Shown: in pieces, positions 5,124-64,000 of the stretch | How the letters are laid out: each line of letters begins with the position of its first letter | Numbering within the stretch: the stretch's first letter is position 1 | NCBI GenBank assembly: GCA_025808555.1 | Contig: CP075526.1 | Location: forward strand, 2,036,712 to 2,100,711 | Reading direction: 5' to 3' | From: Anaerolineales bacterium | GTDB taxonomy: Bacteria; Chloroflexota; Anaerolineae; Anaerolineales; UBA11579 | DNA: 64,000 nt | Translations under genes and position numbers: made by a program | The notes under the pieces: generated by a model | What the model saw: the letters and a program-made list of their open reading frames with translations, nothing else | Told to the model about the DNA's origin: nothing | Database searches by the model: none

Positions 5124-5243
5124 TTTCCTTCTTTTGTTGTTTAGGTAACAGTCCGTGCTGATTGTTGGTTGACGTAACTGAACATCTTATTATCATCTGT
5201 AGGATACCTTACATTTGTAGTTTAGACAAGGAGAAATTTTAGG
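5124..5243. promoter_or_regulatory. Divergent control region between tetR-like and doxX-like genes
   Basis: 120 bases, clearly more AT-rich than the flanking genes, hold the ribosome binding sites of both divergent genes (AAGGAG for the plus gene). A TTGACG at about 5169-5174 may be a -35 element. This is where a TetR operator would be expected, but I see no clean palindrome. Confidence 0.4.
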
Positions 5244-5657
5244 ATGCAAGCTTTTGTTTCATTGCTGTCCCCCGATTGGGGTTCGCTACTACTGCGCATC
5301 GGGCTGGCGATCGTTTTCTTTGCTCACGGCCTGCCCAAGATCAAGAGCGTAGGCCAGGTCGCCGGCTTCTTCAAGCAGGCGGGGATTCCGCTGGCTGGTC
5401 TTTCGGCCTGGATCGTGACCCTGCTGGAAACAGTTGGCCCCGTACTGGCAGTCATCGGCCTGGGGACCCGCTTTGTCGCGTTGGGCTGGGCCATCAGCAT
5501 GCTCGTCGCCACTGTGGTGGTCAAGATTCGCATGGCCAAGGTCGGCTTCGCCGCGCAGGGCGGCTGGGAACTTGAATTCATTCTCGGCGTAGCAGCCCTG
5601 GCGCTGGTGTTCACTGGCGCCGGCGCCCTCTCGATGGACGCCGGCCTCGGCTGGTAA
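5244..5657 (+). CDS. DoxX-family membrane protein
   Basis: 137 residues with four hydrophobic segments and the DoxX signature near the N-terminus (LRIGLAIVFFAHGLPKIK) followed by GFFKQAGIPLAGL. DoxX proteins are four-helix inner-membrane proteins, linked in some bacteria to redox or thiosulfate metabolism, but the role is usually unknown. A good AAGGAG site supports the start. The second DoxX-like gene follows after 3 bases, and both lie opposite a TetR regulator. Confidence 0.88.
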   Translation: MQAFVSLLSPDWGSLLLRIGLAIVFFAHGLPKIKSVGQVAGFFKQAGIPLAGLSAWIVTLLETVGPVLAVIGLGTRFVALGWAISMLVATVVVKIRMAKVGFAAQGGWELEFILGVAALALVFTGAGALSMDAGLGW

Positions 5658-62505: not shown

Positions 62506-63213
62506 TTAGCTATTGATACGAACAATTTCCTCAAGAAGTGCATCAAAGGGTTGAGAGAAGTTGACCTGAGTTGCTGTGGGTAACTTCTCCTTCTTTCGGA
62601 TTTGAGTGTGCAAATAGGAATCGGAAAGTTTCCGCGATGCATTTTCAAGGTAAGCCATCAGCTCACGAAACGACCTGGTCCCATAGTTGTTTGCTACTTC
62701 ACTAAATGTTTTGCAGCCAAAAACTGGGGGAACATGGTCCAAGACCGATCTCAGCAACATTCCAGTCGCATAGTAATTTTGACTAACAAAGTTGTGGTCC
62801 AGTTCTTCGCAAAGTCTAATAAGGCGAGCGAAATCAAAGCTATGCGTCGTGAGTCTTCTTATCTCATCGAGTCGTTTCGGATCTATGAACCTGTGAGCGT
62901 TTCTTGACGTGCTTCCATTCTCCAGATCGCTGTATTCTGTTTCCAAATCTTGGATTGACTTGGGATGGAGCCGAAAAGAACCCTGGCCATTAGCTTTGAT
63001 AATACGCCCAGACTGCCGTATTTTTTTGCCCAATCGTGTTCTGTTGGGTTTGGGTAACCCTAACTGTGCATACCAGTCCTCTAAATCAGATAACGAAAAG
63101 GTTTCGATGCCCAAACCCTTCAACGCGTAAAAAGCTGTTCGTTCAGCTCGATCGGGCTCTCCCTGTTCCCATAATTTACTTGCATCTCGGAAATCCTCAA
63201 ATGACATGTTCAT
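62506..63213 (-). CDS. Unrecognised protein with winged-helix-like N-terminus (right-edge cassette, gene 3)
   Basis: 235 residues from ATG 63213 (AAGAGG 7 bases upstream; the frame is open to 63240). N-terminal part (about 1-95) looks like a helix-turn-helix plus wing: LSDLEDWYAQLGLPKPNRTRLGKKIRQS and GQGSFRLHPKSI. The C-terminal part (about 110-235) is all helical with ARLIRLCEELDHNFVSQNYYATGMLLRSVLDHVPPVFG and a conserved-looking RSFRELMAYLENASRKLSDSY. No name or catalytic motif recognised. AT-rich compared with the rest of the window; codes in the same direction as the two genes before it. Confidence 0.75.
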   Translation of the reverse strand: MNMSFEDFRDASKLWEQGEPDRAERTAFYALKGLGIETFSLSDLEDWYAQLGLPKPNRTRLGKKIRQSGRIIKANGQGSFRLHPKSIQDLETEYSDLENGSTSRNAHRFIDPKRLDEIRRLTTHSFDFARLIRLCEELDHNFVSQNYYATGMLLRSVLDHVPPVFGCKTFSEVANNYGTRSFRELMAYLENASRKLSDSYLHTQIRKKEKLPTATQVNFSQPFDALLEEIVRINS

Positions 63214-63223
63214 TTTGTTCCTC

Positions 63224-63700
63224 TTAGGTAAGATTTCCAAATAATTCTCGTATGGTAGGTTTAGGGAAGTATGCTAAACCTCGTCCGTGCTGCTCTCGAG
63301 AGAGATACTTAGGTGTGAGTTTTCGGAGTGCCCGATTGATGTTCTGACGACTAGGTGGGTGTACGCTGAGCTTTAGTCTGATTTCTTCTCCAATCGATTT
63401 GTTCACAGCAAGCGAGCCAGCGGCAACTAGGTGCAGTACTGCCCAAGCTACCCTTTGCTCTTCCGATCCCCTTTCACTAACTGCAAAATCGGGTGGCAGA
63501 TTGCTAAGGACTTGTGAGATCCAATTGCTAACTACTGGCGCAGTTGGACCTTGGGAGACTTGCGCGGAAGTTGACGCAGATTCGGGCTGCCTGGCGGAAA
63601 GTTTATAACCCAGTAGCTCTTGAAACGCAGCAACCCTGTATTCGGAAGGCAGGGCCTTTACTTGTTCTTCTGCCCAGGCTAGCAATTCTTGAATGTTCAT
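63224..63700 (-). CDS. Unrecognised protein with C-terminal winged-helix-like segment (right-edge cassette, gene 2)
   Basis: 158 residues. The N-terminal third is helical (NIQELLAWAEEQVKALPSEY); a polar Ser/Thr/Pro/Gln linker follows (about 37-58); then VAWAVLHLVAAGSLAVNKSIG and a helix-turn-helix-like end IRLKLSVHPPSRQNINRALRKL with a wing HGRGLAYFP. The last part lines up with the other two cassette proteins (P..N.NR...then R....G..Y). The gene begins 2 bases after the upstream stop and ends 10 bases before gene 3. Function unknown. Confidence 0.72.
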   Translation of the reverse strand: MNIQELLAWAEEQVKALPSEYRVAAFQELLGYKLSARQPESASTSAQVSQGPTAPVVSNWISQVLSNLPPDFAVSERGSEEQRVAWAVLHLVAAGSLAVNKSIGEEIRLKLSVHPPSRQNINRALRKLTPKYLSREQHGRGLAYFPKPTIRELFGNLT

Positions 63701-63702
63701 CT

Positions 63703-63999
63703 CTACTCTCTCTCAATCATCGACTTGACTTTGTTAAGGCCTAGGCTTGACAGCGAATACCTGTATGCTTGCCCTTCCGGACTCCGGACAAAATGGCTCA
63801 TCTTCGTGGAAATTGCTCTATTGATATTCGGCGCGTATACGCTGGGGATTCTTAGCTTTTCCTTCAGAATCCTAGCTATTTCTGGCGGAGTCAGCGACCT
63901 TGCGCCTAGTTGCTGTTCGACCATGTACAAAACAATAAGCGAACGCTCTAGCCACGACCCATTATTTATGTACTTATCGAATTCCGAGAAGTCGATGTC
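63703..63999 (-). CDS. Partial unrecognised protein with winged-helix-like C-terminus (right-edge cassette, gene 1)
   Basis: The frame is open to the right edge of the window, so about 98 C-terminal residues are visible and the 5' end is missing; an internal TTG/ATG near 63930 is unlikely to be the true start. The visible part has GSWLERSLIVLYMVEQQLG, LTPPEIARILKEKLRIPS, VYAPNINRAISTKM and GQAYRYSLSSLGL, a helix-turn-helix with a wing. Two bases separate it from gene 2. Function unknown. Confidence 0.7.
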   Translation of the reverse strand, partial: DIDFSEFDKYINNGSWLERSLIVLYMVEQQLGARSLTPPEIARILKEKLRIPSVYAPNINRAISTKMSHFVRSPEGQAYRYSLSSLGLNKVKSMIERE

Positions 64000-64000
64000 T

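Follow-up and report, generated by a model that had tools for sequence, protein, structure and literature searches.

The 64-kb window (the whole 64,000-nucleotide stretch of DNA analyzed here, bases 2036712 to 2100711 of a 2.24-Mb single-contig Anaerolineales genome, G000) ends in a 2.1-kb minus-strand operon of four genes, A-B-C-D. This operon is probably, with somewhat better than even confidence, a compact, horizontally spread conflict module akin to toxin-antitoxin or abortive-infection systems, in which a pair of winged-helix proteins (A and B) is combined with an exchangeable effector. The reading is favored by the recurrence of A and B with exchangeable partners, a fusion between A and one such partner, low GC content, solitary insertions, and defense-type neighbors of D-like and partner genes.

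An initial annotation had described three genes of unassignable function at the right edge of the window as a cassette. The three minus-strand open reading frames (ORFs), separated by 2 and 10 bases, were borne out by ORF calls, but the cassette proved to be part of the larger four-gene unit. Reading past the window's right edge (L002, in which a position equals the window position minus 53288) showed that the edge cuts through gene B, that the first in-window gene, of 98 amino acids, is the 3' part of a 170-amino-acid B (63703..64215; L002 10415-10927; in-window part 63703..64000), and that B is preceded by a new gene, A (129 amino acids; L002 10924-11313, window-equivalent 64212-64601), which overlaps it by 4 bp. 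Gene C (158 amino acids; 63224..63700; L002 9936-10412) follows B after 2 bp and encodes a B paralogue with a helical N-terminal segment and a winged-helix-like C terminus. Gene D (235 amino acids; 62506..63213; L002 9218-9925), the proposed effector, follows C after 10 bp. Shine-Dalgarno-like sequences are clear for A and B, and the ATG of D lies behind a weaker AGAGGA.

The surroundings did not match the defense or mobile island that had been proposed; instead, the operon sits by itself between ordinary genes. On one side are a VanW/G5 protein gene and a gene that reads as murA-like, and on the other a thioesterase of the 4HBT type and a methylase resembling RsmD are encoded. Searches of the surroundings turned up no tRNA, no flanking repeat, and no mobility gene. 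Nor did the operon show inverted repeats at its ends or the target duplications of an insertion, and among the neighbors read in L002 no defense gene adjoins it.

Base composition sets the operon apart, as the initial annotation had noticed. At a GC of 0.476 it is the minimum among all 2.1-kb stretches (mean, 0.614; standard deviation, 0.028), the next lowest being 0.566, and its GC of 0.48 compares with 0.62 to 0.65 in the flanks. Gene by gene, GC is 0.44 to 0.50 and GC3 is 0.41 to 0.54, versus 0.62 to 0.63 and 0.77 to 0.81 in the three flanking genes measured. These values fit a recent arrival. Seven of eight related modules are clearly AT-richer than both of their own flanks, and their distribution is patchy, in agreement with the AT-rich, horizontally inherited block proposed earlier. 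Sporadic, horizontal inheritance of the operon is thus supported.

None of the four proteins has an accepted match in Pfam, NCBIfam, or PADLOC, in keeping with the earlier impression that the genes could not be assigned, and none matches the system models of PADLOC 2.0 (2023). The sole library match of note is that of B to PHROG 22442 (E = 3e-4), a family listed with function unknown. Scans of viral contigs with each of the four proteins, and with a haloarchaeal paralogue of A, returned no relatives, nor did a search of phage records with D. A limited look at the literature found no description of the A+B module, which looks undescribed and missed by present detectors.

Gene A encodes a member of a second winged-helix family, distinct from the segment common to B, C, and D, which A does not have. 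Full-length relatives of A are encoded on haloarchaeal plasmids (35% identity, E = 1e-14), and an A profile finds others in seven genomes of the same phylum (G213, G393, G318, G497, G507, G777, and G847). With G000, this makes eight carriers among roughly 900 phylum genomes sampled, an approximate total, as the sets overlapped. All-against-all comparisons connect the A proteins to each other, and several of them score as TrmB, MarR, or IclR-type winged helices.

In six of the seven other carriers (G213, G393, G318, G507, G777, and G847) and in two haloarchaeal plasmids (Halobacterium and Haloarcula), A is followed by a gene for another small protein, whose C terminus is winged-helix-like. These B proteins are mutually related, and the order of A and B is the same as in G000, where an A-family gene is followed by a gene that scores 22.0 bits against a B profile (0 of 2,000 shuffles). 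What follows B varies. For example, in G213 and G847 the next protein has an N-terminal RSRRGSH or RNRRGVGH (an HEPN-like Rx5-6H pattern) and, as judged by reading, a winged-helix-like C terminus. In G393 it is a 260-amino-acid protein whose C-terminal half matches PDC-S05 (E = 1e-10) and whose N terminus resembles the window's B in pairwise comparison (0 of 1,000 shuffles), though not by the B profile. The defense link of this G393 partner consists of the PDC-S05 match and a weak match to a VPA1262 domain; its identity as a PLD nuclease was considered and was not confirmed by Pfam or solved structures. PDC genes are putative defense genes from a guilt-by-embedding approach (PMC12988326). G497 has A without B, followed by a DUF5343 gene matching PDC-M34A (E = 4e-8). 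G507 and G777 have A and B without an effector, and the G318 locus is cut by a contig end.

The two haloarchaeal plasmids encode A, B, a second A-type protein (A'), and an AAA_assoc_C protein. In both (L015 8164-9900 and L026 8145-9887), a HerA-like (DUF87) ATPase gene whose own product's C terminus reads as a winged helix faces this cluster. In Natronomonas pharaonis, a 290-amino-acid protein joins a domain of the G847 partner type (E = 3e-13 to that partner) to an A domain (43.4 bits, versus 5.3 for the best shuffle), a fusion that links A directly to an HEPN-like partner.

A winged-helix-like segment shared by the three in-window genes, as the initial annotation had proposed, was recovered with a profile built from three other loci. 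This profile contained the B proteins of G777, G213, and G847 only, with the window's proteins left out. Window B, C, and D scored 22.0, 9.0, and 7.6 bits, each above all 2,000 of its own shuffles, and they ranked first among about 930 local ORFs. Separation came with G777 and G847, since a B profile built without these two loci did not distinguish B, C, and D from noise. An eight-member B profile still finds B and D and misses C, so for C the evidence of membership comes from the three-member profile and from its being a paralogue of B (0 of 1,000 shuffles). In D, the B-type segment spans about residues 18 to 100. Structure models were of mixed use here. The N terminus of D was predicted in a helix-strand-helix-helix-strand order at a pLDDT of about 60, while the model of C, with a mean pLDDT of 48, was too poor for use. 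By the three-member profile, B, C, and the start of D belong to one winged-helix-like family, a relationship that is real but weak by sequence.

The remainder of D (about residues 106 to 235) is helical, and the initial annotation had pointed to it as a possible effector. Relatives of these C-terminal 130 residues are 47 to 52% identical in candidate-phylum bacteria and Prevotellaceae; others occur in two further genomes of the phylum and on Methylobacter, Sphingobium, and Streptomyces plasmids. Among the relatives, the domain is joined to unrelated N termini. Invariant residues cluster at R155...D159-H160 and K195..D198...H202-T-Q-I-R206-K-K-E, and D159, H160, K195, D198, H202, R206, K207, K208, and E209 are strictly conserved across six distant relatives whose N termini are unrelated. 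Two candidate sites for the catalytic RX4-6H motif of HEPN proteins, R155-x4-H160 and K195...H202, do not vary across the alignment.

The AlphaFold model of this part of D has pLDDT values mostly of about 75 to 90. Foldseek gave no significant match with the D model. In VIA-align, the nine best solved structures were HepT toxins, HEPN, or HEPN-like proteins at Z scores of 8.0 to 8.8, with CCM3 and vinculin-type bundles next at about 7.4 and below; for a helical bundle, a Z score of about 8 is below the level that VIA-align calls safe. No HEPN family model in Pfam, NCBIfam, or PADLOC matched D, and distant HEPN families often escape sequence models. The structure comparison suggests, without proving, the four-helix HEPN fold. 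In conflict systems, HEPN domains have an established role as RNase effectors (PMC3710099).

Genes near D relatives agree with an effector role in three contexts. On the Methylobacter sp. YRD-M1 plasmid (L017 3299-9782), the relative is flanked by a PDC-S19 (DUF3644) gene on one side and by a complete Gabija pair (GajA, E = 2e-230; GajB, E = 2e-234) on the other. In G102 the neighborhood includes a type I methylase and a DpdJ-like helicase, and in G110 it includes HEC-06 and a type IIG enzyme. No known defense gene was found among the neighbors scanned in L005 and L009, and none is annotated alongside the Sphingobium copy. Separately, thirteen actinobacterial plasmids (Streptomyces and Kitasatospora) encode distant relatives of the D C-terminal domain, all annotated as hypothetical, and on one of them (L019) the gene lies near a MobF relaxase and an integrase.

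Expression of the operon appears to start from an unusually good promoter. Just upstream of A, a TTGACA-17-TATAAT sequence (L002 11335-11363, window-equivalent 64623-64651) is a perfect 12/12 match to the sigma-70 consensus, and no 160-nucleotide tile of the 64-kb window scores 12. A promoter of at least 10/12 lies upstream of A in seven of the eight loci (12/12 in G000, G847, and G497; 11/12 in G507 and G318; 10/12 in G213 and G393), the exception being G777 at 8/12. In dinucleotide shuffles, equally good promoters were rare for G000, G847, G497, G507, G318, and G213 (at most 5 of 500) and not rare for G393 (55 of 500) or G777 (244 of 500). A recurrent near-perfect promoter before predicted DNA-binding proteins would suggest strong expression checked by autorepression, as in toxin-antitoxin operons. 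Repeated AT-rich GTTATA/TATAAC elements, which look like candidate operators, lie between promoter and A in G497 (L066, about 5200-5300), where they include ACGGTATACCGT, and in G507 (L067, about 5550-5600).

Comparison with described systems gives partial likenesses. HepT and its HEPN relatives are the best structural matches of the D C-terminal domain, which recalls the MntA-HepT (HEPN-MNT) toxin-antitoxin (PDC-M05). However, no minimal nucleotidyltransferase was found in the operon or among its neighbors, the partners are winged-helix proteins, and D has no Pfam HEPN match. AbiE (AbiEi/AbiEii) is a winged-helix-antitoxin system in which a winged-helix protein and a toxic partner are encoded in a short autoregulated operon. 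By analogy, the same arrangement may apply here, but A, B, C, and D lack any AbiE-type match in PADLOC, and there is no AbiEii-type nucleotidyltransferase. PADLOC's PDC-S05 and PDC-M34 are connected through loci where the partner gene of A matches one of them (PDC-S05 in G393, PDC-M34A in G497). Neither extends to the four proteins of the operon, and the window's effector is of a different family. AbiJ-type proteins have a variable N-terminal domain fused to HEPN (PMC3710099). The D C-terminal domain is likewise found on varied N termini near defense genes, but D has no match to the AbiJ N-terminal domain and begins with a B-type winged helix.

Under the conflict-module reading, A and B, together with C as a duplicate of B, would assemble with the effector by way of D's B-type winged-helix segment. 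This complex would keep the effector inactive and would probably repress the very strong operon promoter. Infection would disturb the complex, through invading DNA or through loss of A or B, and the HEPN-like domain of D, once released, would cut RNA and halt the cell or the phage.

Three other explanations were weighed against this scheme. It is unlikely that A and B are ordinary winged-helix regulators in a small autoregulated operon, with the neighbors as regulated genes and no toxin. The scores of A as a TrmB, MarR, or IclR-type helix-turn-helix in several loci, the occurrence of A and B alone in G507 and G777, and the strong promoters near possible operators are all what such regulators would show. 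Against this, a short operon that lacks a metabolic target has three to four winged-helix genes, and where partners exist they match defense candidates or carry HEPN-like motifs; the fusion of A to an HEPN-like domain, the low GC, and the patchy spread also argue against simple regulation. Somewhat less doubtful, although still improbable, is a D C-terminal domain that acts as a helical scaffold or ligand-binding domain, so that the module would serve in sensing or regulation and not in killing. The structural matches of middling Z score would allow it, as would a candidate for a canonical HEPN motif that comes solely from an alignment. Strict conservation of charged and polar residues across the six distant relatives is more typical of an active or ligand site, and defense-gene neighbors in three contexts weigh toward an effector. 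Both the regulatory and the scaffold explanations keep some force because two loci have A and B without an effector and because the catalytic motif of D is a candidate drawn from that alignment.

The least probable of the three is that the operon is part of a module for the maintenance or replication of a plasmid or virus, such as a HerA-linked cassette, left stranded in the chromosome. Haloarchaeal relatives do reside on plasmids, a HerA-like (DUF87) gene faces the cluster in two of them, and orc1/cdc6 and polB genes are close by in one. However, HerA, replication, and mobility genes occur in none of the eight bacterial loci within the stretch read around A and B, and the scans of viral contigs and phage records gave no relatives.

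A broader proposal, held tentatively and at less than even confidence, is that bacteria and haloarchaea share an undescribed modular immune family in which the A+B core recognizes the nucleic acid of an invader, or some change brought about by a phage, and licenses plug-in effectors, each docked by its own winged helix. If the conflict-module reading is right, an unannotated protein pair marks a defense or toxin-antitoxin module in both bacteria and archaea, and a widespread unnamed domain, that of the D C terminus, gains a testable role. The loci would also offer a built-in comparison, since the same core occurs with an HEPN-like, PDC-S05-type, or DUF5343 effector or with none.

A relaxed scan of the phylum with the A profile gave matches in 115 genomes; all but four of the matches were partial winged-helix matches, mostly inside longer proteins, and these were discarded, as were L022, L024, and L025. 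A match in G028 (L013) was rejected as an A relative since it overlies an oxidoreductase gene and contains a stop. On a plasmid of Halorubrum sp. CBA1229, a stretch of about 7 kb (L016 5105-12206) contains four A-family genes. One of them adjoins a divergent gene whose winged-helix-like product has an RTRANANAH motif at its C terminus and a weak match to PDC-M05B (E = 0.0065).
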